Assembly (NCBI RefSeq): GCF_002846335.1
Contig: NZ_PJMQ01000001.1
Span: 1,922,001 to 1,986,000 of the forward strand
Direction: 5' to 3'
DNA from: Janthinobacterium sp. 61
GTDB taxonomy: Bacteria; Pseudomonadota; Gammaproteobacteria; Burkholderiales; Burkholderiaceae_D
DNA length: 64,000 bases
In this document: positions 11,093-29,962 of the stretch, in pieces
Layout of the letters: each line of letters begins with the position of its first letter
Numbering within the stretch: position 1 is the stretch's first letter
Notes under the pieces: model-generated
Seen by the model: only the letters and a program-made list of their open reading frames with translations
Told to the model about the DNA's origin: nothing
The model's database searches: none
Translations under genes and position numbers: made by a program

Positions 11093-11962
11093 TTAGTCGG
11101 TGGAATACCATGATTGATAGCGCCCAGAAGTAATGGCGGCCCCGTCCTTTTTTTCAATTTGGTTGCAATGCACGCAGAGCAATTGCAAATTGCTGACGTC
11201 ATTTAGTCCGAACTGCGCGAGAGAAACAATGTGATCATAGTTTTCCACATTCTCGATATTCGCCAAACCAGATAAATCACTGTCGCACAAGACGCAGCGC
11301 CCACGGTCTCGATAGAAAACGGCGCGTTGCGCCCACTTTGGCGGCCTTACTCGAAGCAGAGTTCCGCGAGGAGAAAGCAATGTATGATCCAAATCCTCCG
11401 CATCCTCGATGGTAGCGCCACTCAGAATACTCGACATGTAATCATTGAAATTTAATAACAATTTCCGATTTTGAAACAACACATGGAAGACCTCCCCAAC
11501 CGTTTGATCCATAAGCTTTTCATATGACTCAGACAACCATATCTCATTCATGAAATCATATACATCATCGTCATCGGCATCAAGGTATGACTTGCCCAAA
11601 TCGGCCAAATGATCCGCAAAGCTCTGATAATCAATACCGTGATGATCAAAGGCATTTTCAATTGGAAGCTTGTAAACATAAGAATCACCAAATTTCATGA
11701 CTATCTTTCTGCCTAAATCCGTCATGCTATGGCAAGAGGGCAACTCCACCTCTTCCGCCTGTTCGGAGTGAACATCCCGGACAACAAATTCAATGAACTG
11801 ATGGAATACGGAATATTTTTTGTAGGGAGCAAGCCATCCAGCCCATTGCCCATCGCAATGAAATGCCTCCAAAGCCACGATATTCTCAAACCTGTTCTTT
11901 AATATTCCATCAACGATAGAACATAAATAATAGGTGTCGTAAAATTTTGCCTCAATATGCAT
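11093..11962 (-). CDS. HNH endonuclease with uncharacterised N-terminal domain
   Basis: The C-terminal 75 residues form an HNH nuclease with structural zinc cysteines: C223/C226 (RCVLCDSD), the catalytic D243-H244 (NYDHIVSL), N254 region (FGLNDVSN) and C263/C266-N267 (LCVHCNQ). The first 200 residues have no domain I recognise and may sense a target or bind a partner. HNH proteins of this build act as nicking or double-strand nucleases. It is AT-richer than its neighbours and is followed on the same strand, further upstream, by another HNH-type gene, which suggests a shared defence role. Confidence 0.75.
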   Translation of the reverse strand: MHIEAKFYDTYYLCSIVDGILKNRFENIVALEAFHCDGQWAGWLAPYKKYSVFHQFIEFVVRDVHSEQAEEVELPSCHSMTDLGRKIVMKFGDSYVYKLPIENAFDHHGIDYQSFADHLADLGKSYLDADDDDVYDFMNEIWLSESYEKLMDQTVGEVFHVLFQNRKLLLNFNDYMSSILSGATIEDAEDLDHTLLSPRGTLLRVRPPKWAQRAVFYRDRGRCVLCDSDLSGLANIENVENYDHIVSLAQFGLNDVSNLQLLCVHCNQIEKKDGAAITSGRYQSWYSTD

Positions 11963-12048
11963 GCTATGGATCTGCTTAAACTAGACGTTGAATTCAGTCA
12001 TTCGCGCCCTGCGTTTGACCCAAGATAAAAACACTATGATAGAAATCC

Positions 12049-12759
12049 CTACGCCCACACAACACGACACGCGAGATATTCGCTGAGCACAATATGCACG
12101 TAATTACCGTCAGTCTGCCCGGCAAGATACCGGTATCGCCCATCTTGAACCTCTATCCAGCCGTCTGCGACCCTCGCTCCGGATGGTAAAGCTCTCATGA
12201 ATGCCCTCGATCCCAACTCGGGCCAGACAGCCATCACACCAAGCTCAGGACTCTCGAAAAACGCCTGTTGGGCCTCATCCATAAGGGCAAACGGGACGAT
12301 TTCGAACACGTCCGGCTCTCCAAACTCCTGGATGCTGAGTTCGTAATCAAGATGCCCCCGCGCGAGCTTCAAGACCACATTTCGAACCCGATCCATCTCA
12401 ACACTCCAAGTCTTATCTCCAAGTAAGTCCAAGGACATCGACGATTGAATCTGCGCGGCAAGCTGTGGAACCTGCAGGAGAATACGCCGGATATTGTCGC
12501 GCCGGACTAAAGCAGGATCTGCCGATCCACATATCACGCATTCCACTAGGCATGCCAAATATCGTTCGTCACTTGAAAACGACTGATTACATTGTTCACA
12601 TGCTGCCACGACTGGGAGGTTCAATGGAAAGGGTTCGTCGAGCAAAACTTTTGACGGACAATGATCCCGGGTATCAGGCTTGGCTCCGCAAAAAATGCAC
12701 ATTCCGGTCATACGCGCATCAACAAAAAGCTTCTTCGGATCATTCACCAGTGAGCCCAA
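12049..12759 (-). CDS. HNH-like zinc-finger protein
   Basis: This 236-residue protein has an HNH-like zinc core at its N-terminus: C21/C24 (MCIFCGAKPD), D32-H33 (TRDHCPSK) and C54/C57-N58 (ACEQCNQS). The other 160 residues are not recognised. The layout (CxxC, DH, CxxCN) is that of HNH nucleases found next to restriction and phage-defence genes. A start further in, at MTGMCIFCG, is also possible. It is divergent from the sigma-factor gene at 13106, with an operator-like palindrome between them. Confidence 0.6.
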   Translation of the reverse strand: MGSLVNDPKKLFVDARMTGMCIFCGAKPDTRDHCPSKVLLDEPFPLNLPVVAACEQCNQSFSSDERYLACLVECVICGSADPALVRRDNIRRILLQVPQLAAQIQSSMSLDLLGDKTWSVEMDRVRNVVLKLARGHLDYELSIQEFGEPDVFEIVPFALMDEAQQAFFESPELGVMAVWPELGSRAFMRALPSGARVADGWIEVQDGRYRYLAGQTDGNYVHIVLSEYLACRVVWA

Positions 12760-12861
12760 TCAAAGAAAAATCTCACGAAAAGTGTCATTTAGATAACATC
12801 GAACAGTCTCCACTTTATCAATAACAAGGATTCTGCCGAGCCCCCTGCATTTATCGCACTT

Positions 12862-12877
12862 TTTTACAATTGTAAAA
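12862..12877. promoter_or_regulatory. perfect 16-bp palindrome, possible operator
   Basis: TTTTACAATTGTAAAA is a perfect palindrome in the AT-rich 340-base space between the divergent HNH-like gene (ends its 5' side at 12759) and the ankyrin-sigma gene (13106). Its size and place fit a dimeric repressor site controlling one or both genes. The rest of the intergenic space shows no other feature I can support. Confidence 0.5.
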
Positions 12878-13105
12878 TAAGCTTATTGAAAAATGAACAT
12901 GAAGCGTGCTGTCTCTAGCCATCTGCTGTAGAATTTACCCAAATACAAGAAATTTGTTTATAACACAATTTGGCAGCGAAAACATGCCCAGCGGAACGTC
13001 GAAAATATCAAATAAACAATGCAACATGACAGCGACAAAGTGTCTAAAAAGTTTCATTTTTGAGCGCAGTCACTTCGCGGCAGAGGCCCGGACGCAAACG
13101 TGCGG

Positions 13106-15682
13106 ATGATCGACACGAATATTGCCGACATGCGTCCTCTCAATCGTTTCCTAAAAATGGCAGTCGTGGCAGGAGTCGAGAGCGCGGTTCGAATTCACAT
13201 CGATCGAGGCGACGATCTCAATGCGCGAGATGGAAATGGACTCACGCCCCTGATGCTGTCGGCGGCCAGAAACAAATTTACTATATGTAAACTCCTGCTC
13301 GACGCAGGAGCGAACAAAGGTTTACTAGCCCCGTCAGGAAAAACAGCGCATGCCATCGCCGTTGACGCAGGAGCGCACGAAGCGGCTTCGATATTGATGC
13401 CTGTGATTTTTCCGATCGATACATCTGACGGATCGCTCCCTAACGTGGCTCCGTCTCCAAGAGAAGCTTGCTCCTCCCCAGGCAATCCAGCCGTAGAGCC
13501 GCCCCTAACCTTCGGCGCCACGAACAGAGCTGAGGATATCGCTCTACTCAATATCCAAATCGACATAAAAGAGGACGAGCTGGAAACAGGGCTCGAATTT
13601 GACTTGTCCGGCTGGGAGCCGGAGGAGGACATGCCCCCTCCCGCGGTCGATCCGTCTGTGGCCCAAGCAGCAAGCACGCTCCAAGAGTCCATTTCAAAGC
13701 ACGAGCCAATAGATTCATCGGAAGATTGGGAGGACATTGATCTATACCTGCCGGAGCGCTCGATGCCGTTGGCTCGCACTGGCGACGCCGAAACCCGCGA
13801 ACTGCTGCGCGCATTGCTGCTTCGAGCTTCTCGAGAGGGCAGCGTTCCTCGTGCGTCGCTCGAAGCCTTGTCGCTAAACGATGACCAATCGGAAAACCCC
13901 GAAGCTGAGGCTCTGCTAACCATGGTTATCAACGATCTTGGTGCCGAAGTTGATGAGCGACTCGAATACGTCAGTTCAAACGAGAATTTCGAGGTCTTCG
14001 TCAAGCCCGAGGAAAATCCGGATGAGGAAGAAATAGTTGCGGATACGTTAGCATTTATTGACAACGTGGCTAGTCGCTACTCAGAACCTCTCCGCATCTA
14101 CCAAAAGGAATTCCAGCGAGAGAGGCTAATTTCGGCCGACGAAGAGGTCGAGCTAGGCAAAGCCATGGAAGTCGAACTTGAACGAGCGCTTGACGTCTTG
14201 GCAACTTGGCCTCGCGGGATTAGCCTTGCGCTGGCCGCCGGGGGCATGATCAAGTCCAAGCAAAAACCTCTAACTTGGCTATCGCGTGGACCGACCGAAG
14301 CGCAACCAGATCTTGAATCAGAGCCTGATAGCGAAAGCGATGCCGAGATGGCTGGCATAGATCAGTCTGATGAAGAAGTCGAATCCGATGAAGACTCGCA
14401 ATTCGACGTCAGCCTCCCACTTGGGGATTTCGCGTCAGAATTCTCAGATGCGGTGGACAGACTTGCCAGCCTTCCGATAGTTCCAGCTCAGCGCGGAGCT
14501 CAATGGCAGGCCGTCCGCGACACGCTATCGTCCCTCCGATTGAACCGCCGCTTTCTCTTGGAGCTGGCTGACGCTGAACCCAATGGTAATCCAGGCTCTG
14601 CGGCATTCGAATATAACAACGCTATGAAGGCTTACCAAGCCGCCCGAGAGCGGATGGCGGCCGCAAATTTAAAGCTCGTTTTCCATCTCGCAAAAAAGTA
14701 TCTCTATAGTGGCGAACCCTTGGACGACTTGGCGCAAGAGGGAAACATCGGCCTGTTGAAAGCCATTGAACGCTACGATTGGCGCCGAGGATTCAAATTT
14801 TCCACTTATGCTACCTGGTGGATACGCCAGCAAATTGGGCGCCATGTCGCCGACAAAGGCAGAACAATTCGCGTTCCTGTCCATGTTTATGAGAAGACTC
14901 AACGTCTCACTCGCGAAACCCTTGCGCTTGAATCCGAGATTGGACGAGAGCCTGATCTGAATGAAGTCGCGACCCGCATGGAAATGTCTGCCCGGAAAGT
15001 ATCAGCGCTTCTAAGCATAGCTCCTGAACCGCTACCAATACATGATCTACCTATTGATGAAATGATTGCCGTCGATGCACAGTCGGATTTCGTTTCGCCT
15101 GACCCTTTTGACATCGCGCTCAAATCCGACGTGCACAAAACAATTGGCAGAGTTCTGGCCACGCTCAAGCCGAGGGAAGAGCAAATTATTCGGCTACGCT
15201 ACGGGATCGGGGTCGGCGACTCATTGACGCTAGATGACATTGGCCAGCGATACGAGGTCACAAGAGAACGCATTCGCCAGATCGAAGCCAAAGCAATCCG
15301 AAAGTTGATGCAACCTAGCCGCATCGATGCTTTATCGAGCGCATTCTTTGGATATCCATTTCCCAAAGAGGAGGTTGCTCAAGACGCTCCTTCCCAGCCT
15401 AGCGAGGCCGCGCACTCACAAGAAGCCAATCAGATACATTCAGATGCCTCTGCCATACATTCGCCTGCGATCGCCACCTCGCCTGCAAAGGCGTCAAGCA
15501 TAGATAGACTAATAGAGCAGGCCACGGGCTTAGGTATTTCTATTGTCGATGAGCGTATAGGAACAACAGGAAAAATATGGATCAATTTTATTGATATACC
15601 TGACGACCGCTATCGAAAATTGACCCGCAAACTAATGGCTTTAGGATTCGAGTTCATGCTAGGGAAAGGCTATTGGAAATGA
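13106..15682 (+). CDS. ankyrin-repeat / sigma-70 family fusion
   Basis: This 858-residue protein starts with ankyrin repeats (about residues 10-95: GDDLNARDGNGLTPLMLSAA, LLLDAGANKGL). A long acidic linker follows. It ends as an RpoD-like sigma factor: region 1.2 (LRIYQKEFQRERLISADEE, about 330-360), region 2 with LAQEGNIGLLKAIERYDWRR and FSTYATWWIRQQIGRHVADK (about 520-590), region 3, and region 4 with TLDDIGQRYEVTRERIRQIE (about 707-727). A further 110-residue tail is unrecognised. It should direct RNA polymerase to specific promoters. It heads the MORC/Z1 cassette and overlaps the next gene by four bases (ATGA). GTG at 13100 is an alternative start. Confidence 0.88.
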   Translation: MIDTNIADMRPLNRFLKMAVVAGVESAVRIHIDRGDDLNARDGNGLTPLMLSAARNKFTICKLLLDAGANKGLLAPSGKTAHAIAVDAGAHEAASILMPVIFPIDTSDGSLPNVAPSPREACSSPGNPAVEPPLTFGATNRAEDIALLNIQIDIKEDELETGLEFDLSGWEPEEDMPPPAVDPSVAQAASTLQESISKHEPIDSSEDWEDIDLYLPERSMPLARTGDAETRELLRALLLRASREGSVPRASLEALSLNDDQSENPEAEALLTMVINDLGAEVDERLEYVSSNENFEVFVKPEENPDEEEIVADTLAFIDNVASRYSEPLRIYQKEFQRERLISADEEVELGKAMEVELERALDVLATWPRGISLALAAGGMIKSKQKPLTWLSRGPTEAQPDLESEPDSESDAEMAGIDQSDEEVESDEDSQFDVSLPLGDFASEFSDAVDRLASLPIVPAQRGAQWQAVRDTLSSLRLNRRFLLELADAEPNGNPGSAAFEYNNAMKAYQAARERMAAANLKLVFHLAKKYLYSGEPLDDLAQEGNIGLLKAIERYDWRRGFKFSTYATWWIRQQIGRHVADKGRTIRVPVHVYEKTQRLTRETLALESEIGREPDLNEVATRMEMSARKVSALLSIAPEPLPIHDLPIDEMIAVDAQSDFVSPDPFDIALKSDVHKTIGRVLATLKPREEQIIRLRYGIGVGDSLTLDDIGQRYEVTRERIRQIEAKAIRKLMQPSRIDALSSAFFGYPFPKEEVAQDAPSQPSEAAHSQEANQIHSDASAIHSPAIATSPAKASSIDRLIEQATGLGISIVDERIGTTGKIWINFIDIPDDRYRKLTRKLMALGFEFMLGKGYWK

Positions 15683-17166
15683 GTTCAAAAACACGAAGCG
15701 CGCCCCCACGCGCGATGGCAATGCTCGAATCTTTACGCGGATTAGGATACTCGACAGCAGCGGCTTTGGCCGACATCATCGACAACAGCATTTCTGCCGA
15801 TGCAGAAGAAGTCCGCATTGACTTCACATGGGACGGGCCGAGTAGCCGCGTTACCATTCTCGACGATGGTCGTGGCATGGATGACGCCGAACTCGAAAGC
15901 GCGATGCGCCTTGGCGACAAAAACCCACTCGATGCTCGCTCCGCCCACGACCTCGGACGTTTTGGCATGGGCCTTAAAACATCGTCGTTATCACAATGTC
16001 GTAGACTAACTGTGGCTACAGTCAAAGGAGGCGTCACAAGTTGCCTACGCTGGGACCTAGACGAGCTCGCCGCGAATCCAGAGGGAGGCTGGCTTCTTTT
16101 CGAAGGCTCAGCCCACGGATCGAAACCCTTCCTCGCGGGCTTGAAAGGAAATAAGACCGGCACACTGATCCTATGGGAAACAATGGACCGTGTGGTCACT
16201 TCCGGCTACACATCAGACGACTTTCACGATCTCATTGACAACGTCGAGTCTCATCTGGCGATGGTCTTTCATCGGCTAATGCAGGGCCCTCGGCCAAAGC
16301 TTAAACTTTTTTTGAATGGACGTCTCGTCTCGCCTTGGGACCCGTTCATGTTAGGACATCCAGCAAAGCCATGGACATCGCCGACCACAAACCATACCAC
16401 CAGCTACGGAATCGTGTCGGTGCAATGCCACGTGTTGCCGCACCGTGACAAGCTAACCGCTGCCGAATTCGAATCTAACGCCGGTCCCGGCGGTTGGACA
16501 GCGCAGCAAGGCTTCTACGTCTACCGAAACGAGCGGCTCTTGGTTGCGGGTGGATGGTTAGGGCTTGGCAATTCCCGCGCATGGAACAGGGAAGAAGCCC
16601 ATCGACTAGCGCGAATACGCCTAGATATTCCTAACACAGCCGATGCTGACTGGAAAATCGATGTTCGAAAATCGACAGCCCGTCCGCCTGTATCGCTTCG
16701 CCCTTGGCTTATGCTCTTGGCCGAAAATACCCGCGAGCGGGCCCGGCGCGTATTCGCCTATCGTGGCACGCCAGCGCCCGCGAAAGGCAATATTCCCATT
16801 GAGCAGGCTTGGCGTGTAGAGCGCGTCAAAGCGGGCATGCGGTATAGGATAGAAGAGACTCACCCCTCCGTTGCTGCCGTCCTGGAAAGTGCCGGAACGC
16901 TCGCTCCTTTGATCAAGTCAATGCTTCGGGTAATCGAAGAGACTGTTCCCGTGCAGCGCATCTGGCTGGACACTGCTGAAAACAAAGAGACACCACGAAC
17001 AAGCTTCGAAGGTGAGCCCAATTCGGCCGTAATCGAGGTCGCCGGAGTGCTCTTCAATGATCTGATCGAGCGCAAGGGCCTTAGCGTAGAAGACGCGCGC
17101 AGGTCTATGGCGCGCACAGAACCATTCCAAAAATATCCTGCGCTCGTCGCAAAACTAGGGAGTTAG
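15679..17166 (+). CDS. MORC/MutL-type GHKL ATPase
   Basis: This 495-residue protein has an N-terminal GHKL (Bergerat) ATPase: N box ALADIIDNSISADA (about 27-40), G1 box DDGRGMDD (about 61-68) and G2 box GRFGMGLKTSSLSQC (about 95-109). It resembles the MutL/MORC-like ATPases that comparative genomics (Iyer, Abhiman and Aravind 2008) linked to restriction-modification operons. These ATPases clamp or remodel DNA on ATP binding. The ATG at 15679 overlaps the sigma-gene stop and has AGGGAAAGG nine bases upstream; a TTG two codons earlier is less likely. The Z1 helicase gene follows after two bases. Confidence 0.88.
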   Translation: MSSKTRSAPPRAMAMLESLRGLGYSTAAALADIIDNSISADAEEVRIDFTWDGPSSRVTILDDGRGMDDAELESAMRLGDKNPLDARSAHDLGRFGMGLKTSSLSQCRRLTVATVKGGVTSCLRWDLDELAANPEGGWLLFEGSAHGSKPFLAGLKGNKTGTLILWETMDRVVTSGYTSDDFHDLIDNVESHLAMVFHRLMQGPRPKLKLFLNGRLVSPWDPFMLGHPAKPWTSPTTNHTTSYGIVSVQCHVLPHRDKLTAAEFESNAGPGGWTAQQGFYVYRNERLLVAGGWLGLGNSRAWNREEAHRLARIRLDIPNTADADWKIDVRKSTARPPVSLRPWLMLLAENTRERARRVFAYRGTPAPAKGNIPIEQAWRVERVKAGMRYRIEETHPSVAAVLESAGTLAPLIKSMLRVIEETVPVQRIWLDTAENKETPRTSFEGEPNSAVIEVAGVLFNDLIERKGLSVEDARRSMARTEPFQKYPALVAKLGS

Positions 17167-17168
17167 AA

Positions 17169-20081
17169 ATGATTGCAGCAGAAGAGGCCGTCGCGCAAAC
17201 ACAGCTACTCGAAGATGTCATCGCCACCGCGCAGCGACTAGTGAAGGCAGAGAAGGATTCGTCGAAGATTACCCCCTCCTACATCGCTGCCAAGGTGAAG
17301 TTGGCAGCGGCGATGTTCGCTACCGATCCACCTATCCCTTTGGACGAAGCCAAAGTAGTTGCCACTCTAATCCAACGGTTCAGTCATCGGATGGGCAAGG
17401 CAACTACCCTCGTCGACATCGCGGGGCACTTCGATTGGTTGAATGCCGCCCGCAAGAAAGAATGGCATTACTGGCGACGCTACCGCGACTATCAGGAGTC
17501 CAAATTGTCAGACGTGGTCGTCGATGGACTAGACGAAGCGACTGATGACATTCTCGGGCTTCTCGAAGATCCTCTGCGAACCGATTCCTGGGATCGACGG
17601 GGGCTCGTCGTGGGGCATGTGCAATCAGGGAAGACCAGCAACTACACGGGCTTGATCAATAAGGCTGCAGACGCCGGCTACAAGATCATCATTGTGCTGG
17701 CAGGCATGCACAACAACCTGCGCTCACAGACCCAGATGCGTCTCGAGGAAGGCTTCCTGGGATACGAAACAACGGCAGACCGCGACGCTGGCGCGGCCAT
17801 CGGCGTGGCTGCGTATGGCGAGGACCTGAAAACAAACTCAGCGACGACCAGGGCAGAAAATGGCGATTTCAGCAAAGCCATCGCGAAACATTTTAATGGT
17901 ATTTCCCCTGAAGAGCGACCTTGGATCTTCGTGGTTAAGAAACAAAAAACTGTGCTGACAGAGCTCCTTAAATGGATTCAAGCACGTGTAGCCGATTCAC
18001 CAAGCTCAATGCCCAATTGGAAATTGGTCACCAAGCTGCCGCTTCTGATGATCGACGACGAAGCTGACAACGCCTCGGTGGATACAGGCGAACAGGCTTT
18101 CAACGATGATGGGACCCCCGACGAGGAACATCAGCCAAAAACAATCAACAGCCTCATCCGTCAACTTCTCCACTCCTTCACGCGAAAGGCGTATGTGGGA
18201 TACACGGCCACGCCATTCGCAAACATCTACATTCATCATAAAGGCGCCACCGCAAAGGAAGGTCCTGACCTCTTTCCAAAAGCTTTCATCATCAACCTAG
18301 CCGCCCCATCGAACTACGTTGGCCCCGCCCGCATGTTTGGCAAACTGACCAAGGACGGCCGCGTGGGGGCTCTGCCGTTGGCACGCAGCATCTTGGACCA
18401 CTATGATCCCGATTCCGACTCGGGATGGATGCCGCCCAAACACAAGAAGACACACCTCCCGCTCCATAAGGGCCAAGAGACGATACCGCTGTCGCTGCGC
18501 AACGCTATCCACTCCTTCGTGCTTATATGCGCGGCGCGAGAATTGCGCGGCCAAGGGATCGAACACAGCTCTATGCTGATTCACGTCACTCGATATGTAG
18601 CCGTCCAAGACCATGTGCGTGAGCAAGTAGAGGAAACAGTGCGCCGCATGCGCCAGAAGATCACCCGTGGCAGCGACGCTAATGAACTGCTTGCACAAAT
18701 GCGCAAGCTCTGGGACGAGGACTTCATCCCCACACGAGATATGGTCGCGGAGCTCTCGCCCTCTGAGGAGCGCCCTCCTGAACTACCCTCATGGGATGAT
18801 GTGGTAGCGAAGCTGCCAGATGTGCTCGGCGATATTGCCGTTCGCTCCATCAATGGAACGGCCAAGGACGCATTGGACTACGCCACACCCGGTGCAGCTC
18901 TAAAAGTCATCGCCGTCGGCGGGGACAAACTTGCTCGCGGCCTGACCCTTGAAGGCCTCTGCATAAGCTATTTCGTTCGCACGACCAAGATGTATGACAC
19001 CCTTATGCAGATGGGACGTTGGTTCGGCTACCGCCCTGGTTATTTGGACCTCTGCCGACTCTACACATCCCCAGACTTGGTGAAATGGTTCGGCCATATC
19101 GCCGATGCATCCGAAGAACTCCGCGAAGAATTTGATTTCATGGCGAAGGCGAATCTCACACCGGAGCAATACGGCCTCAAAGTCATGTCGCACGAGAGTC
19201 TCACGGTCACGTCGCCCATGAAGATGCGCAACGCGCAGACACTGTCTCTGACTTACAGCGGCACGAGGCCTCAAACCATCCTGTTTCATCGGGATGCCAA
19301 TATCCAGAAGGCAAATCTTGCCGCGACAGATGCGCTGATCTCCTCCCTTGGTATGAACTTCGTGCCCGGGCCGAAATACTCACGTGACGGCCAAGCCGAT
19401 TCGTGGCAAGGAGCTCGCCTATGGAGAGACGTGGACGCCTTGAATGTGCTCGCATTCTTAGGTGCCTATGCTACCCATCCAAATGCAACGAGCGCCAAGG
19501 CGGGAGTGCTGACGGATTTCATCACAAAAATGATAGCCATCGGCAAGTTGAAGCAATGGAGTGTCGCCCTTGTTACCGGCGGCGAAGGGGCTGGTGAAAA
19601 GCACGTCTTCCCTGGCGACTTTGAAGTCGACTCCTTCCAAACACGCTGGACCGAAGATCCTGATACGCCAGGCGCCAAAGACCCGACCATGTTTGCGATC
19701 GGCGTTCTCACCGATCCAAAGGACGAGGGCATAGATCTCAATGATGATGCATGGCGAGATGCACTCGCGCGCACTCGCGCTGCATGGAAGCCAGAGCCAG
19801 CCCGAGGCCGCATTACGTTGCCGATCACTCCTAGCGGCAAAGGGATTCGCGAATCGCGAGACCGGCTTGGTGGCGATGCTGATCGCGGTCTGCTACTGCT
19901 CTATACGCTTGCCCCATACTACAAAGGCAAAGAAAAACTCCCTGAAAACCTCATTGTGCCTGGCTGGGACAAACCCATCATGGCTTTCGCCATCGCGTTC
20001 CCTGCAAGCGAAAACGGAATCCGGGTGGAATACGAAGTGAACCTTCTCTATTGGACACAGCAATATGGCCCGACCGAGTAA
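17169..20081 (+). CDS. Z1-domain superfamily II helicase-like protein
   Basis: This 970-residue protein has a P-loop ATPase core: Walker A GHVQSGKTSN (about 150-159), motif II LLMIDDEADNAS (about 291-302) and motif III GYTATPFAN (about 344-352). The Z1 domain follows (about 580-640: GGDKLARGLTLEGL, QMGRWFGYR). Z1 proteins occur with MORC ATPases, AIPR proteins and methyltransferases in restriction-like operons and are thought to translocate on or remodel DNA. It starts two bases after the MORC stop and overlaps the PD-(D/E)XK gene by 17 bases, so the cassette is probably one transcript. Confidence 0.9.
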   Translation: MIAAEEAVAQTQLLEDVIATAQRLVKAEKDSSKITPSYIAAKVKLAAAMFATDPPIPLDEAKVVATLIQRFSHRMGKATTLVDIAGHFDWLNAARKKEWHYWRRYRDYQESKLSDVVVDGLDEATDDILGLLEDPLRTDSWDRRGLVVGHVQSGKTSNYTGLINKAADAGYKIIIVLAGMHNNLRSQTQMRLEEGFLGYETTADRDAGAAIGVAAYGEDLKTNSATTRAENGDFSKAIAKHFNGISPEERPWIFVVKKQKTVLTELLKWIQARVADSPSSMPNWKLVTKLPLLMIDDEADNASVDTGEQAFNDDGTPDEEHQPKTINSLIRQLLHSFTRKAYVGYTATPFANIYIHHKGATAKEGPDLFPKAFIINLAAPSNYVGPARMFGKLTKDGRVGALPLARSILDHYDPDSDSGWMPPKHKKTHLPLHKGQETIPLSLRNAIHSFVLICAARELRGQGIEHSSMLIHVTRYVAVQDHVREQVEETVRRMRQKITRGSDANELLAQMRKLWDEDFIPTRDMVAELSPSEERPPELPSWDDVVAKLPDVLGDIAVRSINGTAKDALDYATPGAALKVIAVGGDKLARGLTLEGLCISYFVRTTKMYDTLMQMGRWFGYRPGYLDLCRLYTSPDLVKWFGHIADASEELREEFDFMAKANLTPEQYGLKVMSHESLTVTSPMKMRNAQTLSLTYSGTRPQTILFHRDANIQKANLAATDALISSLGMNFVPGPKYSRDGQADSWQGARLWRDVDALNVLAFLGAYATHPNATSAKAGVLTDFITKMIAIGKLKQWSVALVTGGEGAGEKHVFPGDFEVDSFQTRWTEDPDTPGAKDPTMFAIGVLTDPKDEGIDLNDDAWRDALARTRAAWKPEPARGRITLPITPSGKGIRESRDRLGGDADRGLLLLYTLAPYYKGKEKLPENLIVPGWDKPIMAFAIAFPASENGIRVEYEVNLLYWTQQYGPTE

Positions 20082-21075
20082 CGAATTTCTCATGGCATGG
20101 ACGTCGCTTACTGGCGCCGACATTGAGCCAGGATGGCAGGCCATCTCCCTGCCTTCGGCAGGGCCACTTCAAGTGCGCGCCGGCCGCCGCTCGCCTGACA
20201 ACACTGAGGCGGTGTTGGTAGGCTTCCCCACCGTGCGGCTCGCCGCAGCCGACAAACTCCCCGAAGGCCAGGGCTTCTCGGTCGAGCGGGCCGACCCAGA
20301 AGGCAGCGGCAAGCTTTGGCTTGCCTTGACACGAAAGTCTGCGGGTAGCGCGGAGCTCTTCGCGGCCATGGCGTGCGATGTAGTCGGAGCTCTAGATGAC
20401 GCTGTGATGGCCGGTGCCGACGAAAATAAACTCCTGCGAGTCTTCACAGGGCGCGTAGGGGCTTGGCAGGAATTCATGCGCAAAGGAACGCAAGTTCTCA
20501 GTCCTGAATCCGAGATCGGCTTAATTGGGGAGCTCACGCTACTACGCGCCATCGTCAACGCTGGCATCCCTTCGGCGCTAGCCATTGAATCATGGGTTGG
20601 CCCACTCGACGGAATACAGGACTTCGAGTTGGGCACTGGCGCGCTGGAGGTCAAAACCACACTGTCAACGGCAGGCTTCACAGCCAAGATCGGCTCGCTC
20701 GAGCAACTGGACGATTCGACGCGGCAACCTCTCTTTGTGGCCGGCGCTCGGCTCCGGCAAACCGAGAGCGGCCAGAACCTGCCGGAGATAGTCGATGCTA
20801 TGCGGTTGACAATACGGGGCGATGCCGAGGCGGAGCGGCTCTTTACTGAGCGCCTGCTCGCTGCTGGCTACATCGACGCACACGCTGAGCGCTATCCACG
20901 GCGATTTGAGCAAGCAGAAACGCGCATTATCGAAGTAACGAGCGACTTCCCACGCCTAACCTTGGGATATGTGCCTGCGGGTATCATGAAGGCTATGTAT
21001 GAAATTGACCTCGAGAAGGTGCCTGGCGAAAACGTTGGCACAGAGGGAGCATTAAGAAAATTGGGAGCAATTTAA
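20065..21075 (+). CDS. PD-(D/E)XK-motif protein (DUF4420 type)
   Basis: This 336-residue protein matches the PD-(D/E)XK motif family found with Z1 and MORC genes. The likely nuclease core is in the middle: a conserved Glu helix (SEIGLIGELTLL, about 152-163), then DGIQDFELGTGALEVKTTLS (about 182-201) with Asp, Glu and E-V-K as candidate metal ligands and catalytic lysine. It would be the DNA-cutting part of the cassette. It overlaps the Z1 gene by 17 bases and ends two bases before the AIPR gene. Confidence 0.85.
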   Translation: MARPSNEFLMAWTSLTGADIEPGWQAISLPSAGPLQVRAGRRSPDNTEAVLVGFPTVRLAAADKLPEGQGFSVERADPEGSGKLWLALTRKSAGSAELFAAMACDVVGALDDAVMAGADENKLLRVFTGRVGAWQEFMRKGTQVLSPESEIGLIGELTLLRAIVNAGIPSALAIESWVGPLDGIQDFELGTGALEVKTTLSTAGFTAKIGSLEQLDDSTRQPLFVAGARLRQTESGQNLPEIVDAMRLTIRGDAEAERLFTERLLAAGYIDAHAERYPRRFEQAETRIIEVTSDFPRLTLGYVPAGIMKAMYEIDLEKVPGENVGTEGALRKLGAI

Positions 21076-21077
21076 GT

Positions 21078-22853
21078 ATGAATTTGACTGAATTCCTGTG
21101 CGAGACGCAGGCCACCGTCCGCTCACAAATGCGTGACGGCGCGTTATACGAAGAATTGGTATTCGCGGGTATCGTAATGGACCACATGTCGGAAATAGGC
21201 ATGACGTTCGAACCTGTCGAATGCCATTTTGAAGGCAAAGTGGGCAATGCGAATTTAAGGCTCAGCGGCTATTCCGTGTCGGAAGATAGCGACCAACTCG
21301 ACCTGTTCGTCAGCCTATACGCCAACGTCGATATCCCCACGCCGATCCCGGATTCCGAGACGAAGACCGCTGTCGAGCAGTGTCTGCGTTTTCTGACACT
21401 ATGCGCCGAAGGCAAGTTGGCTCCGAAACTTGATCCTTCAAGCGACGTGCGTTCGCTGGCGGAGACACTGCACGGCATCTACAACGACTTGGAGCAAATC
21501 CGCGTATACGTCATCACCGACAAGGTCGCCAAATCCAAAAGCTTCAAGACGCGCGACATAGGCGGCAAGGCCGTGCGTCTCGAAGTCATGGACATCGAAC
21601 GGCTTCATCGCCATTGGTCCGAGGGAAAACCTCGCGACGAGCTGGTCGTGGATTTCAACGAGGTCTCCGGCGGGCCTCTTCCCTGCGTCTTCGTGCCTGG
21701 TGAAAACGATGACTACGACTACGCGCTTACAGCCGTCCCCGGAGAGGCTCTCCGACTGCTCTATGAGAAGTTCGGCGCTCGGTTACTTGAAGCCAACGTC
21801 CGCTCATTCCTTAGCGTCAAAGGAAAAGGAGTCAATGCCGGCATTCAAACCACTTTGCGTTCAGCGCCTGAGCGGTTCATGGCATATAACAATGGCATCG
21901 TAATCGTGGCCGATGAAATGCGCTTGGGCAAAAATGGCGACGGCGCGACGGGAATAGCGTGGCTTAAAGGACTTCAGATCGTCAACGGTGGCCAAACGAC
22001 TGCCTCGCTCTATTTCACCAAGAAAAAATATCCCGACACCGATTTGAGCCATGTCAGAGTTCCGGCCAAGATTATAGTGATGAAGACCCAGGACTCAACC
22101 AAAGAGGAGGCGCTGGTCTCAGATATATCGCGCTTCGCCAACAGTCAGAATGCAGTCAAGCAGTCGGATCTCTCGGCGAACAAGCCCTTCCACGTCGAAA
22201 TCGAAAAGCTCTCTCGTTCGGTATACTGCCCGGACGGTGTCGGCCAGTGGTTCTACGAGCGCGCGGCTGGTAGCTATAACACCCTGCTAACCCGCGAAGG
22301 CACAACACCAGCAAAACTAAAAGCGCTAAAGGATGCGATTCCGACGGCGCGGCGCATCACCAAAACCGATTTGGCAAAATACATCACTGCGTGGGACCGC
22401 AAACCGGATGTCGTTAGTCTAGGGTCTCAAAAGAACTTCGACCGCTTCATGGCTGCCCTCACTTCCTCCGATGGCCAAGAGGTGCCTGTGCCAACAGTTC
22501 CAGAGTTCAAGGCCATGATCGCAAAAGCCAAAATTTACCGAGACTCCCAAAAACTTTTGCGCCCAATGTTTCAAGCATTTCAGGCCAACGTTACTGCGTA
22601 TACGGTCTCACTGCTATCGGAAAAACTTGGGTCCCGCATTGATCTCGACCGTATTTGGGCAAAGCAAGCAGTTTCCTCTGAGCTTCTTTCGCAGATTGCA
22701 GTTTGGGCCAAGGAAGTCAACGATGTGCTACATTCCTCCGCCGGTGGTCGCATGGTTTCTGAATGGGCCAAGCGGCCAGAATGCAAAGAAGCAGTGATGA
22801 GCGCCAGCTACTCGATAGCCGCTTCCAACATACCAGAGGTCAAGGTGGGGTAG
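21078..22853 (+). CDS. AIPR-family protein
   Basis: This 591-residue protein belongs to the AIPR (abortive infection phage resistance) family. The diagnostic block is LQIVNGGQTTASLYF (about 299-313), preceded by ERFMAYNNGIVIVAD and followed by SRFANSQNAVKQSDL. AIPR proteins are large, uncharacterised members of phage-resistance and restriction loci and are proposed to act on nucleic acid. It is fifth in the cassette, two bases after the PD-(D/E)XK gene. Confidence 0.88.
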   Translation: MNLTEFLCETQATVRSQMRDGALYEELVFAGIVMDHMSEIGMTFEPVECHFEGKVGNANLRLSGYSVSEDSDQLDLFVSLYANVDIPTPIPDSETKTAVEQCLRFLTLCAEGKLAPKLDPSSDVRSLAETLHGIYNDLEQIRVYVITDKVAKSKSFKTRDIGGKAVRLEVMDIERLHRHWSEGKPRDELVVDFNEVSGGPLPCVFVPGENDDYDYALTAVPGEALRLLYEKFGARLLEANVRSFLSVKGKGVNAGIQTTLRSAPERFMAYNNGIVIVADEMRLGKNGDGATGIAWLKGLQIVNGGQTTASLYFTKKKYPDTDLSHVRVPAKIIVMKTQDSTKEEALVSDISRFANSQNAVKQSDLSANKPFHVEIEKLSRSVYCPDGVGQWFYERAAGSYNTLLTREGTTPAKLKALKDAIPTARRITKTDLAKYITAWDRKPDVVSLGSQKNFDRFMAALTSSDGQEVPVPTVPEFKAMIAKAKIYRDSQKLLRPMFQAFQANVTAYTVSLLSEKLGSRIDLDRIWAKQAVSSELLSQIAVWAKEVNDVLHSSAGGRMVSEWAKRPECKEAVMSASYSIAASNIPEVKVG

Positions 22854-22894
22854 GATATCCATGACGGAGGCAATCGACATTGGGGGATCGGCGC

Positions 22895-23344
22895 ATGGCT
22901 GACATCGTGCCACCATCGGTCAGAAGTCGAATGATGTCCGGCATCAAGGGTAAGAACTCTCAGCCCGAGATGCTGGTCAGGCGTATGTTATTTGCCGCTG
23001 GATTCAGATTTCGGCTGCACCGACGCGACTTGCCAGGCACGCCCGACATTGTCATGCCAAGCCGAAAGATCGCCATATTTGTGCATGGCTGCTTTTGGCA
23101 CGCTCACAAGGAATGCAAGTATTTTAAAATTCCGGCTACGCGGCCTGACTTCTGGGTTGAGAAACTGCAAGCCAATGTCGATCGAGACCAACGAGCCTTT
23201 GATGCGCTAACAGCCATGGGTTGGCGGGTTTTGTGTGTTTGGGAATGTGCCACTCGCGATCGAGAGACAGTCAAAACATTGTCCGACAGAATCACAGCGT
23301 GGATCAACCAAGACACCCCGTGCGGGGAAATTGGTCGAGGGTGA
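22895..23344 (+). CDS. vsr: very short patch repair (Vsr) endonuclease
   Basis: Vsr nicks next to T:G mismatches that arise when 5-methylcytosine deaminates. This 149-residue protein has the family layout: MMSGIKGKNSQPEMLVRRML, then LPGTPDIVMPSRKIAIFVHG with the catalytic Asp near residue 51, CFWHAH with zinc and active-site residues, and RVLCVWECA. The ATG at 22895 gives the usual family length; a TTG at 22880 is possible. A 13-codon reading frame (22861-22902) overlaps its start and may couple translation. Pairing with a C5-cytosine methyltransferase that converges on it fits its normal role, but Vsr-like nucleases in MORC/Z1 loci may also act in restriction. Confidence 0.92.
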   Translation: MADIVPPSVRSRMMSGIKGKNSQPEMLVRRMLFAAGFRFRLHRRDLPGTPDIVMPSRKIAIFVHGCFWHAHKECKYFKIPATRPDFWVEKLQANVDRDQRAFDALTAMGWRVLCVWECATRDRETVKTLSDRITAWINQDTPCGEIGRG

Positions 23345-23379
23345 GTAAGCCACCGAATCGTTTTTCTTATGTCAATGGC

Positions 23380-24948
23380 TTACTCTTCACGGGAAGCTAA
23401 GAATTTATAGATAACCTTTGCTATTTTTCGCGCCAATAAAGGAGGGACCGCATTTCCGATCTGTCCATACTGCTCTGTCCTGTTTCCTTCAAAGAAGTAA
23501 TTATCCGGGAATGTTTGCAATCTTGCCGCCTCACGAACCGTGAGGCTTCGGCATTGGGCAGGATCAGGATGTATGTAGTAATGGCCATCCTTTTTGATGT
23601 GGGCCACAACTGTAGATGAAGGCGCACCGCCAAGCTGGACCCTAAATCGATCTGCAAAAGGAATGCTCTCCTTTTCGGCATTCATATGGTCAGGCATAAG
23701 TTTGGGTGGGAAGTCATACAGTGTAGGCGCATAACCTCTTTCTTTTGCGAAACAAGCCGCAAATAGATAGCGATGCAAATCCGAGCGCATATGGCTACGC
23801 GTTTCGTGTTGTAGCACTCCACCTAGCCGGCTATCGAGATACCAAGAGCGCAATTCTTTGGGCATTTCTACACCAGGAGTCACTACCATAGGGATGAACG
23901 TTCCTCCCGAGGATGGTAATTTCTCTGCGGCCTCGACTGCGTTCTTCATCCGCGTTTCAATCTGGGTTCGTAAAGGCAAGCGCCACAAATTCAAACTCAA
24001 TGGAGCTACTTTCATGACCCCGAGCCACGTCTTGTGCGAATCCGGTTCTTTGGAGATTCGACTACGCAGTGGCGGCAGACCCGACAATGCGGCATTTACG
24101 CTCGGCCTTGGAAAGGTTTTTCGCAGCAGGAATCGTCGTGGATTCCTCATAAGTTCTGGTGTAGCCTCAACAACATCGGACCTGATGCCAAACAGAATCA
24201 CACGGTGGCGGCTTTGTGGGATGCCATAATCGTCCGATTCAATTACGTAATCCCGCGGCTTCAGTTCATTGCCATCCACAACCAAAGAGCGAATCTGATA
24301 GCTGAGACCATTTTTGGGCGCGGACAAGTCGGCCAAAATGCGTTCAAAAATCTTGGACTCGCCATGCTTGGAACTAAGCATCCCCTTGACGTTTTCCATG
24401 ACAAAGACCGATGGCTCAAATTCCTGAATGATCCGAAGATACTCTGTATATAGAAAATGCCTCTTATCGCTCTCAAACGCTTCCGGGTCCTTCCCCCTAA
24501 GGCGCGAGCGTCCAGCCATCGAGTAAGCTTGGCATGGCGGCCCGCCGATCAACACCCAATTTCTCTTGCCGCCTATACCTTCTTTTATCCAAGCATCAAT
24601 AGTTTCATGGGGTGTCGCGCCTAACTCTGCACAGCGAGCCTCTTTCGAGGCCTCTTCCGCAGCGTCTTTAATCTCCGGGTGGCTCAAAAATTCTTCGCGA
24701 GTCATGCCCCCACGGACATACTCGTAATAGCTAGCAGGCGCATTGCCTTTGGGAAATTTCCGGAACAAAGCCCTCAGCATCAAAGTTCGATGGGCAACCG
24801 GGTCTTTTTCGATGGAAACCTTAACGCCGAATCTTGGAAACCCATTTTCGTCCACAATGGAAGAAAAACCCTCACAAAGGCCACCCGGACCGGCAAACAA
24901 GTCGATAACGGGAATTTTGCTACGCTGTGCCATCAATTTTTTCTTCAT
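23380..24948 (-). CDS. DNA (cytosine-5) methyltransferase
   Basis: This 522-residue C5-methyltransferase transfers methyl groups from S-adenosylmethionine to cytosine. Visible motifs are I (DLFAGPGGLCEGF), IV (GGPPCQAYSMAGR), VI (VFVMENVKGM), VIII (HRVILFGIRSD), and IX/X (TVREAARLQTFPDNYF, GQIGNAVPPLLA). The length is greater than a minimal enzyme because of insertions between motifs I and IV and in the target-recognition region. The ATG at 24948 (MKKKLMAQ) is chosen over a start 27 codons upstream in a Trp/Arg/Gly-rich stretch. It faces the Vsr gene with a 35-base gap. It probably protects host DNA for the cassette; the target site cannot be read from sequence. Confidence 0.93.
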   Translation of the reverse strand: MKKKLMAQRSKIPVIDLFAGPGGLCEGFSSIVDENGFPRFGVKVSIEKDPVAHRTLMLRALFRKFPKGNAPASYYEYVRGGMTREEFLSHPEIKDAAEEASKEARCAELGATPHETIDAWIKEGIGGKRNWVLIGGPPCQAYSMAGRSRLRGKDPEAFESDKRHFLYTEYLRIIQEFEPSVFVMENVKGMLSSKHGESKIFERILADLSAPKNGLSYQIRSLVVDGNELKPRDYVIESDDYGIPQSRHRVILFGIRSDVVEATPELMRNPRRFLLRKTFPRPSVNAALSGLPPLRSRISKEPDSHKTWLGVMKVAPLSLNLWRLPLRTQIETRMKNAVEAAEKLPSSGGTFIPMVVTPGVEMPKELRSWYLDSRLGGVLQHETRSHMRSDLHRYLFAACFAKERGYAPTLYDFPPKLMPDHMNAEKESIPFADRFRVQLGGAPSSTVVAHIKKDGHYYIHPDPAQCRSLTVREAARLQTFPDNYFFEGNRTEQYGQIGNAVPPLLARKIAKVIYKFLASREE

Positions 24949-25191
24949 ATCATTATTCCAGGGATCACTCAGACCCCCGATAGAACGGCGAATACCACAA
25001 CCGCTACGCCACCACTCAAAACTTTTCAAAACCCATCATTTTATCTCATATCAATCACAACGTCGCGAACGATGTGAAGGCCAAAACATCGATGATGTCT
25101 CCAGAAACATAACCAATATGCAAAAGTAAAAAAGGTAGCCTTTGTTCACCTTAAGTTATTAGATGTATCATTTTTTGTCGTATTCGGCGCC

Positions 25192-25461
25192 CTATTTCTT
25201 ATGGCTCTCTATGGTAGTCATCTGCCTCTCCAAACCAAGCATGTATTCCGCCATCAAGTCAGCGTCCTTCACCGCTGACTTGATGGCCATCGGGTCAGCG
25301 CTCACAGCCTTGATCCAGTGCTGGAAGCAGGCCGCGAGGTTATCAATTTGACGTTGGGACATTGGCACACCTATCTCGGCACTGCGTCGCCGCGGGCCGG
25401 GCCAACTACGTGTGACTGTCGGGGGACATTGAATGAAACCGCAGAAAAAATTCATACTCAC
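25192..25461 (-). pseudogene. ArdC C-terminal remnant
   Basis: The last 55 or so codons match the C-terminus of the intact ArdC gene at 33355-34494 closely: GVPMSQRQIDNLAACFQHWI here against GVPMSQSHIDNHAAYLQHWI, and ADLMAEYMLGLERQM against AELMAEYMLGLEKQM. The first 33 codons do not match ArdC. The metallopeptidase motif is missing, so no antirestriction function remains. Together with the intact copy it brackets the 25-34 kb cargo, all in the same orientation. Confidence 0.8.
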
Positions 25462-25591
25462 AAGAATTCTTAGCGCATAGATATTTTCATGAGAGCAACA
25501 TTAGTAGGTTAAAATCATTCTTTTCGCTTGGCGAATCGTGTCCCGATTTTTAAGAGCGCCTATTGTGATTCGTGCAACCCTGAAGGAAGAC

Positions 25592-27166
25592 ATGGCTCCG
25601 TCCAACATGCAGCTCAAGCAACAACGACTCGACGCGTTGTTCGAAGAATGCCAACAGCACGTCTTCTCCCAGATTATCGGCCCATTCGGGCTATCGCCGG
25701 CCATGTTCGCCGACAAGGCCGGCGGCAATGTCACCACGGTCCAGAATTTCGAGAAAGGCATCGTCGCCACAGAAAGCGACAAGGCCTTGCACGACTCACT
25801 CACAGAGGCGTATGACCGGAGCAAGTATGAGCTGTCCCAAAAAGAATGGGCCGTAAAGCGTGATGAGCGGATCGCGCGTGGCGTGGATGAATACACCAAT
25901 GAAGCGCTTTCGGCCAAACCAGAACTCGACCATTTCATCCCGATAAAAGAGGTAGCAACGAACGCCAAAATGCATCTGGCCCTCGGGGAAGTCAAAGACG
26001 GCAAGGTCTCGGTCGAGAAGATCAAGGCGCTGGTTAATGACGACGTGAATTTGGCGGTCACGGACATATCCATCAATCGTTCCAAGAAGGACCACGACGC
26101 GAAAGAATGGAGCGAGAAGGTGTCGACAGCGGACGCGGAAAAAAGCAACGCCGAGCGCTTCGCGATCGACCCCGACGCAGTGGCTAAGAAGCACGCCGAA
26201 TCCAAAGAGAAATTCGACGGTGAGACAAACTCCGCCATGTTCAAAAAACAGGGTGGCGAGCTTCTCAAAACTGGGGGCAAGCAAGCTCTGGCCATGGGCC
26301 TGAGGCAATCTCTAGGCATCCTGCTAACGGAGCTAGTCAACGGGCTGTTCAACGAATTCAAAATCATGATTAAGGAAGGCTTCGCGCTCGCGGAGAATAT
26401 GTTAGCGGACATCGGAGAGCGGCTTGGACGAGTCGCTCGCTCAGTAACGAAGAAGCTGCCAGACGCATTCAGTGCGCTCTTCGAAGGCGGCGCCAGCGGC
26501 TTCATGAGCAATCTGTTGACCTTTGTGATCAACTCCTTCGTAAGCACGGGCGAAAAGCTGGTTCGGGTGATACGCGACGGCCTGCTGGGTCTTTTCAAGG
26601 CCTTCAAGCTGATCGCTTTTCCTCCCAGGCACATAAGCCATAGCGATGCTGCCCAACAAGGTTTGAAGATCTTGACGACTGTCGTCATCACGTCCTTGGG
26701 CGTCATGATCGAACAAAGTGCAATCACTTTCATGGCCACGATACCATTCCTTAAGCCCTTGGCCGACATTGTCGCGCCGGTGCTGGTCGGGATCATGGTG
26801 GGCCTGCTTTCAGCCGTGGTGGCATATCAGATCGACCGGCTGTTCGACGCGTGCACCAATGCTGGCGACGAGCGCCGCCTCGATGAGTTAATTGAGGACT
26901 CGCAGCGCGTGGAAGCGTTTGCCACCGCAATGGAGGAACAGATCGGCTTCTCGCTAGCGAACCTCAACAACTACGCGACATCCATCGAGCTTTACAAGGA
27001 TATCGGAGCGTCCTTCGGATCCGCAAGCAACGACGCTAATCTCATGCGGCTGAGCTTGGAAGCGAGCAATGCGGAGATGGCGCTCCAAATCGAAAGCACG
27101 ACGGCGACGGTGGCTTACATCGAATCCTCGCAGCTCGAAATCGAACGCTTCTTGAAACATATGTGA
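25592..27166 (+). CDS. unrecognised HNH-like protein with membrane helices
   Basis: I do not recognise this 524-residue family. Residues about 112-170 look like an HNH-type nuclease core without zinc cysteines: LDHFIPIKEV, then VNDDVNLAVTDISINRSKKD. The middle is helical and amphipathic. Two hydrophobic helices follow at about 360-380 and 388-408 (LKILTTVVITSLGVMIEQSA, IVAPVLVGIMVGLLSAVVAY). The ATG at 25592 is chosen because GAAGGAAG lies just upstream; a GTG at 25538 is also open. The next gene, 51 bases on, encodes a coiled-coil protein with a C-terminal helix, so the two may form a membrane-bound defence or toxin complex. That is inference. Confidence 0.6.
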   Translation: MAPSNMQLKQQRLDALFEECQQHVFSQIIGPFGLSPAMFADKAGGNVTTVQNFEKGIVATESDKALHDSLTEAYDRSKYELSQKEWAVKRDERIARGVDEYTNEALSAKPELDHFIPIKEVATNAKMHLALGEVKDGKVSVEKIKALVNDDVNLAVTDISINRSKKDHDAKEWSEKVSTADAEKSNAERFAIDPDAVAKKHAESKEKFDGETNSAMFKKQGGELLKTGGKQALAMGLRQSLGILLTELVNGLFNEFKIMIKEGFALAENMLADIGERLGRVARSVTKKLPDAFSALFEGGASGFMSNLLTFVINSFVSTGEKLVRVIRDGLLGLFKAFKLIAFPPRHISHSDAAQQGLKILTTVVITSLGVMIEQSAITFMATIPFLKPLADIVAPVLVGIMVGLLSAVVAYQIDRLFDACTNAGDERRLDELIEDSQRVEAFATAMEEQIGFSLANLNNYATSIELYKDIGASFGSASNDANLMRLSLEASNAEMALQIESTTATVAYIESSQLEIERFLKHM

Positions 27167-27217
27167 TTCGATCTACCTAGTCACCAAATCACTGAAACGC
27201 CTCAGAAAAAATCTCCA

Positions 27218-28207
27218 ATGCAAACATCATCCGCTCCATCCACGCCACCGTCCGACAGTGCCTATGAATCTACTACTCCTAGGACTGACCTCGCTCTGAG
27301 CGAAATGCAAATCGTCGAAGCGTTTTCGAATGTCACGGTGCCAGAGGATATTTTAAGGAACAGCAACGTTCCGCAAATGGTCGAGGACATGAGGTCCACG
27401 AAAAAGCGTTTGGAAACCTCGGAGGAGAGGTTGAGCCAACTCCGCAGAGAGAAAAACGACGGCAATTTCATCTCGAACATATGGAATGACCGAAGCGATC
27501 AGATCGACGACGCCAAGGACAACGTGAACAATGAGTTCCGAAAGCTCGGCGTGCTCTCCTCAAATCTCCTGATACTTAATACGGCCATGGCCAAGATCAT
27601 GAATGGTCAGCAAAAGGCATTGCAAGGTCAACAGATTGCGCTAGACCACCAAGCCAGCGACATCAAGAAGCAGAACAGCAACATCAAAGAACACCAAGAG
27701 CTTCATGCGAACACGCTACGCGAATTTAGCAAAGTGGTCGACTCATTGAAAGAAACCAAAAGTCTGACGCAGGCTCAAGCGATCGACCTTATTAAATGCG
27801 CGCAAAAGCTGGCTGAATCCGAGAAGGCTATGATTAAATCCCATGAGCTCCTCATAGACAAAGTCGAGGAGCGGCTGCGACTTATGTCTGGCGACTGGAC
27901 AGAAATTATAGCCAACCGGCTTGCTCAATTCGACCAAGTCCATATGGCTATCGAAATGCGCGTAGCGGAGCGTTTGGCCATGAGCGAAACCACCGCACGA
28001 GATAAGTTTGTAGAAGCGGAGGCTTTGCAGCATAAACTCGATGTGAAACTCGAAATGATGGCCGAGCGCGAAGCCGGACTTTCACGAGCTCTCGAAACGC
28101 AGCGTAAAGGCATCCGCACGCATCAGATTATCCTCGCACTGGAAGGCGTGGCAATTGTCGCGTTTTTTATTTGGATGGCTATTGGCCAGCGCATTCTTCC
28201 GTCATAA
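27218..28207 (+). CDS. coiled-coil protein with C-terminal membrane anchor
   Basis: The family of this 329-residue protein is not recognised. Residues about 60-300 are rich in Glu, Lys, Gln and Leu with heptad-like spacing (QGQQIALDHQASDIKKQNSN), so a long coiled coil is likely. The last 20 residues before the end are a single hydrophobic helix (LALEGVAIVAFFIWMAIG), which would anchor it in the inner membrane by its tail. It follows the HNH-like membrane protein by 51 bases on the same strand, which suggests a two-gene operon and a joint complex. Confidence 0.65.
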   Translation: MQTSSAPSTPPSDSAYESTTPRTDLALSEMQIVEAFSNVTVPEDILRNSNVPQMVEDMRSTKKRLETSEERLSQLRREKNDGNFISNIWNDRSDQIDDAKDNVNNEFRKLGVLSSNLLILNTAMAKIMNGQQKALQGQQIALDHQASDIKKQNSNIKEHQELHANTLREFSKVVDSLKETKSLTQAQAIDLIKCAQKLAESEKAMIKSHELLIDKVEERLRLMSGDWTEIIANRLAQFDQVHMAIEMRVAERLAMSETTARDKFVEAEALQHKLDVKLEMMAEREAGLSRALETQRKGIRTHQIILALEGVAIVAFFIWMAIGQRILPS

Positions 28208-29856: not shown

Positions 29857-29962
29857 CGTTTCTCTCCGCGCGTCGATTCGCCACCACTAGATAGGATGGC
29901 GGCGATGACGCCACTGTGGGTGGCGGCCGGGCTAGGACCTATTATTCGTCGGCGGTCATTGG

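Follow-up and report, generated by a model that had tools for sequence, protein, structure and literature searches.

We analyzed a 64,000-nucleotide stretch of the Janthinobacterium sp. 61 genome (here the window; contig NZ_PJMQ01000001.1, positions 1,922,001 to 1,986,000) that carries a cassette of closely packed genes led by a sigma factor with ankyrin repeats. Genes 1 to 5 (13106-22853) match MzaA to MzaE of the MZA anti-phage system in PADLOC and NCBIfam, and on these profile matches the locus is, with near certainty, a divergent member of MZA. Its sigma subunit, MzaA, looks like a working sigma factor that recognizes ordinary promoters. The reading that we favor, tentatively, is that MzaA couples a restriction-like MzaBCDE assembly to RNA polymerase at such promoters, with a methyltransferase and a Vsr endonuclease at the locus providing self-marking.

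Results

Identity of the cassette

Domain and system calls were made with Pfam, NCBIfam and PADLOC. The cassette is organized as the initial annotation described it, with a sigma gene, packed downstream genes and a facing methyltransferase (Table 1). The first gene encodes a sigma-70-type MzaA with ankyrin repeats, and the MORC protein falls in a sigma-bearing clade that contains the E. coli system (88 rows; Shimodaira-Hasegawa-like approximate likelihood ratio test value, 98). MzaB also gave weak matches to MORC2 and MORC4 in the PDB (2e-4 to 9e-4). All five NCBIfam scores lie under the NCBI equivalog cut-offs (502 of 800 bits for MzaA; the others are in Table 1), so that the locus is a divergent MZA member and not an equivalog by the NCBI rule. 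The putative anti-phage role of the window locus is taken from the naming of the NCBIfam models.

The founding paper of the MZA anti-phage system is reportedly that of Gao et al. in 2020. No MZA mechanism was found in the literature titles and abstract openings searched, a search outside which the founding paper lay. The two E. coli MZA loci examined (L147 and L148) have five genes of the same kind in an order identical to that of the window, with an ankyrin-sigma MzaA likewise coupled to MORC and with MzaB within the same sigma-bearing clade. Identities between the window and E. coli proteins are 41% for MzaA (sigma core), 57% for MzaB, 49% for MzaC, 35% for MzaD and 55% for MzaE. The window adds Vsr and the facing C5-methyltransferase, both of which the two E. 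coli loci lack. A distant search of E. coli with mzaE matched 56 of 5426 genomes; the ten matches listed cover more than 45% of the query, and all are annotated mzaE. Since E. coli mzaABCDE includes an ankyrin MzaA, the coupling of a sigma-ankyrin gene to the ATPase gene, which had been singled out as the unusual part of the cassette, belongs to a known system of which the window locus is a variant. The adjacency is widespread: in a sample of 80 relatives, the ankyrin-sigma gene precedes the MORC gene in 72, and in 34 of these 72 loci mzaA and mzaB overlap by 10 nucleotides.

The comparison with published systems drew on parts of PMC9523054, PMC2292703, PMC11890865, PMC12839542, PMC12629846 and PMC8565338. 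Iyer, Abhiman and Aravind 2008 (PMC2292703) place prokaryotic MORC proteins alongside cytosine methylases, VSR-superfamily nucleases and AIPR, which bears out the suggestion that such groupings were already known; unlike the window, however, those neighborhoods come without a sigma factor, a term with no occurrence in the main text of that paper. A type II MZA relative, identified with gene embeddings (Nat Commun 2022, PMC9523054), is described in the part consulted as about 20% identical to MzaBCDE; it shares the AIPR and MORC-like context of the window, and a few of those systems have mzaA. The window also has the pairing of a C5-methyltransferase with Vsr that marks type II restriction-modification and Dcm-Vsr systems, and Pfam points to MzaD and Vsr as the nuclease candidates of the cassette.

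Table 1. Features of the cassette and its surroundings (window positions)
Feature	Position	Strand	Evidence or remark
Conserved -10-like element CTGTAGAATTTA, consensus CTGTAGAATTTG	12926..12937	+	TAGAAT box 12929-12934
Leader open reading frame, 41 codons, TGA overlapping mzaA ATG as ATGA	12984..13109	+	Open reading frame comparison across loci
mzaA: ankyrin repeats, sigma-70 regions 1.2, 2, 3 and 4, C-terminal tail	13106..15682	+	Pfam; NCBIfam 502 bits, 3e-150; PADLOC 2e-72
MzaA ankyrin region, residues 14-105 of 860-amino-acid open reading frame	13139..13414	+	Pfam Ank_2 4e-9 at residues 20-100
MzaA sigma regions 2-4, residues 515-740	14642..15319	+	Pfam Sigma70_r2 1e-21, r4 7e-17
MzaA tail module in common with ZorC, residues 796-860	15485..15679	+	ZorC model match, hhalign
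mzaB, MORC-type GHKL ATPase	15673..17166	+	PADLOC 3e-195; NCBIfam 765 of 850 bits
mzaC	17169..20081	+	NCBIfam 1146 of 1500 bits
mzaD, PD-(D/E)XK protein (DUF4420)	20065..21075	+	Pfam 1e-72; NCBIfam 368.5 of 420 bits
mzaE, AIPR protein	21078..22853	+	Pfam AIPR 3e-94; NCBIfam 939 of 1050 bits
Vsr mismatch endonuclease	22880..23344	+	Pfam 1e-28; TIGR00632 151 bits, over cut-off
C5-cytosine DNA methyltransferase, alternative start 24948	23380..25029	-	Pfam DNA_methylase 7e-46; best PADLOC model DrmMII 1e-95
PDC-M40B/PDC-M40C	25538-28207		After cassette
Shedu SduA	28693-29856		
Abi_C protein	29963-30790		
AAA/OLD-type protein	31014-32969		

Promoter contacts of MzaA

The initial annotation interpreted the cassette as a defense operon that brings its own promoter specificity. 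The MZA models support the first part of this interpretation, and the residues of the sigma factor do not support the second. Contact residues were mapped in 71 MzaA sequences (the window and 70 loci), anchored on the RpoD of the same genome, with numbers and roles that we take to be those of E. coli sigma-70. Changed -35 and -10 recognition residues, the mark of a sigma factor with private specificity, were sought in all 71. The -35 contacts R584, E585 and R588 are invariant, as are R586 and Q589. Among the residues for -10 contact and melting, W434, R436, Q437 and R451 are present in 71/71 and W433 and T429 in 70/71; T440 varies. The extended -10 contact H455 is kept in 69 sequences, and the core-binding residues are kept in 71 (Q406), 70 (D403) and 68 (E407 and N409). 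Apart from T440, window MzaA thus retains every sigma-70 contact examined, to promoter and core alike, and should read ordinary promoters.

Selection on the individual domains was estimated from omega, the ratio of nonsynonymous to synonymous substitution rates, in a comparison of the window with congener L173; with synonymous divergence of 0.8 to 2.1, the values are rough. Regions 2 and 4 have omega values of 0.019 and 0.045, as low as those of MzaB (0.048) and MzaE (0.027). The other parts of MzaA gave 0.26 (linker), 0.25 (region 3), 0.56 (tail linker), 0.27 (tail) and 0.10 (the ankyrin region, which column occupancy places in 66 of the 71 proteins), and no MzaA domain exceeds 1.

Distribution of the sigma factor, Vsr and the methyltransferase

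Full gene context was available for 52 of the 80 relatives, 48 of them sigma bearing. Vsr accompanies 47 of the 52, the methyltransferase 42, and both 40; for the 48 sigma-bearing loci the counts are 43, 38 and 36. Of the 15 sigma-less loci in a second sample, 14 have a C5-methyltransferase, with three of these enzymes only 25 to 28% identical to the query, and 12 have Vsr. The window Vsr is the sole Pfam Vsr match in its genome. Where Vsr is missing at the locus, it was found elsewhere in 3 of 5 genomes, versus 5 of 14 control genomes; these samples are small, and the E. coli genome was not among them. On a quick tree of 103 MORC proteins, for which the software flagged long branches that join at the sigma clade, the sigma label requires two changes, one gain and one loss, and 80 of the 86 labeled rows in the sigma clade keep the sigma factor. 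Probably, an older MORC system linked to methylation acquired the sigma factor on a single occasion.

MzaA as a fast-changing, exchanged module

MzaA changes faster than its partners: the median end branch is 0.29 for MzaA and 0.052 for both MzaB and MzaC, and congener L173 has an MzaA that is 69% identical to that of the window, whereas MzaB to MzaE are 88 to 95% identical. In comparisons with an MzaB identity of 80% or more, MzaA identity averages 78.4% in region 2, 64% in the ankyrin region, 60.4% in region 4, 38.1% in region 3 and 34% in the nonconserved region. The fast change of region 3 was rejected as a peculiarity of MzaA, since RpoD, too, shows its lowest conservation in region 3 (92.9, 74.8 and 86.3% for regions 2, 3 and 4 among 29 RpoD controls).

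MzaA, MzaB and MzaC trees were compared across 21 loci with approximately unbiased (AU) tests. In the MzaA tree the window groups with L027, L032 and L033 (support, 97). MzaA rejects the grouping seen in MzaB (P = 1.4e-61), and MzaC rejects the MzaA grouping (P = 9.6e-46). Because the MzaA tree conflicts with that of MzaC, the phylogenies indicate exchange of MzaA relative to the rest of the operon.

A C-terminal tail in common with ZorC

Window MzaA has about 110 extra C-terminal residues relative to E. coli MzaA, which lacks the tail; the tail lies beyond the matched PADLOC and NCBIfam MzaA models, which end at residue 746. Its last 65 or so residues are present in 38 of the 71 MzaA proteins by column occupancy. 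Nineteen of the 23 MzaA tails tested match the ZorC model PDLC00613 at an E value of 0.1 or below (2e-7 for the window), and hhalign of 20 MzaA tails against 6 ZorC tails gave a probability of 98.3 and an E value of 2.3e-14. A tail search of 300 genomes of the order matched six: four MzaA (this genome included), one ZorC and one REase_MTES_1575 open reading frame. In a sample of 398 genomes of the phylum, seven matched, two MzaA and five ZorC, the latter all called ZorC by PADLOC (1e-157 or better).

These profiles indicate that the MzaA tail is homologous to the C-terminal tail of ZorC from Zorya type I. Outside the tail, MzaA has no ZorC match, and neither ZorA nor ZorB is among the PADLOC matches listed for the 20 window proteins scanned. 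An AlphaFold model of the C-terminal 110 amino acids has a mean predicted local distance difference test score of 72.8 (81 to 92 by block in the folded part). The model had no PDB match at an E value of 0.001 or below, and searching the tail sequences against the PDB yielded no match under 0.036; the homology therefore rests on profiles and not on structure.

Two other arrangements of the tail were seen. The REase_MTES_1575 open reading frame (L103, 2-757), which is cut by the contig end and weakly resembles Hhe (its end) and PDC-S37, ends in the tail and represents a third architecture. A ZorC (L111, 1-1959, and L107) carries two tandem tail copies.

A conserved box and a leader open reading frame upstream of mzaA

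Shared promoter elements upstream of homologous cassettes were found in part, as a -10-like box and not as a conserved -35 element. The exact box TGTAGAAT, picked from the same upstream sequences in which it was counted, occurs in 15 of 66 mzaA upstream stretches versus 0.16 expected from shuffles. The profile of 23 anchored loci, of which eight were positioned manually on variants, reads CTGTA(G)AATTTG, and no -35 element is conserved in these loci. When up to one mismatch is allowed, a search of the 80 loci and the window for the longer box gives 15 matches, and 13 of these precede mzaA; congener L173 has TGTAAAAT within a conserved block. The whole genome contains 8 sites with at most one mismatch, one at mzaA, versus 4 for a reversed control, and a genome regulon is not argued from these counts. 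Predicted sigma-70 promoters in 12000-28300 number 10, with 10.1 expected, and are thus uninformative. In Variovorax L036 (7462-7493), the box forms one half of a perfect inverted repeat, with a copy on each strand, possibly an operator.

Between the box and mzaA lies a short open reading frame whose stop codon overlaps the mzaA start. Leaders were compared with 1000 rounds of shuffling in 17 of the 23 anchored loci: an open reading frame of 30 to 50 codons ends at the mzaA start in 16 of the 17 (3.0 in shuffles; maximum, 9), and it starts with ATG in 11 (1.3 in shuffles; maximum, 6). Four of the six anchored loci outside this comparison have no such leader or a short one. In congener L173, inspection of the sequence by eye shows a leader of 42 codons that overlaps mzaA in the same way. 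Because the peptide sequence shows little conservation, we claim no protein function for it. RNA structure in the leader was rejected (mean z, -0.16 over the 17 loci), no Rfam family was found in 8000-32000, and neither leader nor box is annotated in the records examined.

Surroundings of the cassette

PADLOC and further scans (25538-32969) place the cassette in a defense island (Table 1). Of 40 genomes of the genus, 4 (counting this one) have an MzaB relative, in one case only 37% identical, which makes the locus accessory. A megablast search gave no match in phage records. On the minus strand before mzaA is a divergent pair (11093-12759), comprising an HNH gene (11093-11962) and, nearer to mzaA, a second gene (12049-12759); among the 80 relatives, only Ideonella L035 has the pair before mzaA (60% and 64% identity). 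Two Massilia loci have a second, longer AIPR-like open reading frame directly 3' of mzaE (L090, 17043-19841; L093, 11688-14348), encoding 932 and 886 amino acids with 33% identity.

Discussion

In the mechanism that we favor, MzaB to MzaE would form a restriction-like complex, and MzaA would tie this complex, at ordinary promoters, to RNA polymerase. The methyltransferase would mark host DNA as self, and Vsr would repair the mutagenic by-product of the methyltransferase. The 10-nucleotide coupling of mzaA and mzaB suggests that MzaA is a stoichiometric partner.

Several observations weigh against this mechanism or its premises. Among the contacts, Y430 is kept in only 61 of the 71 MzaA, E458 in 58 (D in 9), and T440 is variable (T in 28, S in 18, G in 16, with G in the window). 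Six Pseudomonas loci among the relatives lack MzaA, and together with the 15 sigma-less loci they show that genes of the B-to-E type persist with a methyltransferase or Vsr without it. Three of the 52 full-context relatives have neither Vsr nor methyltransferase; with the E. coli loci, this means that self-marking by a local methyltransferase is not needed everywhere. The single gain is read from a tree with the long-branch warning. As to the exchange, the AU-tested groups were named only after identities were known, rejection of the MzaA grouping is weaker with MzaB (P = 0.019), and the MzaB grouping stands unrejected with MzaC (P = 0.136). Finally, a conserved -10-like box at mzaA fits autoregulation no less than it fits recruitment.

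The nearest competing explanation is autoregulation from the TAGAAT box, which we consider possible though doubtful. MzaA would then only transcribe the mza operon from the box, raising MzaB to MzaE upon a trigger sensed by the ankyrin region or the tail, with the leader adding translational control. The presence of the leader and a box that is conserved at mzaA far more than its flanks and is rare elsewhere in the genome are consistent with such a circuit. However, the -35 and nearly all -10 contacts of MzaA are those of RpoD, which should therefore read the same box; no -35 is conserved, the exact box is found in a minority of loci, the mzaB coupling suggests a stoichiometric partner, and sigma-less loci manage without MzaA.

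Next comes an unlikely guard or decoy role, in which MzaA mimics sigma-70, is bound by phage anti-sigma or RNA polymerase takeover proteins and thereby releases an MzaB-to-MzaE effector, its fast evolution and exchange mirroring the changing phage proteins. The end branches, the exchange, the divergence from the congener and the omega values of the tail linker and region 3 would fit this role, but the main DNA contact residues, for which a pure decoy would have no use, are invariant, and omega never exceeds 1. Plain restriction-modification, with the methyltransferase, Vsr and MzaB to MzaE as 5-methylcytosine-guided restriction and MzaA as an incidental passenger regulator, is very improbable: sigma-less loci with both enzymes are common, the sigma label needs only two changes and MORC loci with methylases and VSR are described in the part of Iyer 2008 consulted (PMC2292703), but nearly all labeled rows of the sigma clade keep the sigma factor, regions 2 and 4 are strongly constrained, and the E. 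coli loci keep mzaA without methyltransferase or Vsr.

A more far-reaching version of the coupling of MzaA to RNA polymerase, which we regard as rather improbable in its entirety, is that the sigma factor serves as a targeting device. A restriction-like complex would be brought to promoter-bound RNA polymerase, so that foreign DNA would be attacked where and when transcription starts; the exchanged, fast-changing parts and the ZorC-type tail would read a signal common to unrelated defense systems, and the leader would tie expression to ongoing translation. The kept contacts, the single probable gain, the exchange and the module in common with Zorya narrow the question of why a sigma factor of the housekeeping type is part of an anti-phage system. 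With the leader open reading frame, the exchanged, fast-changing sigma factor and the ZorC-like tail, the role of the sigma subunit becomes testable.

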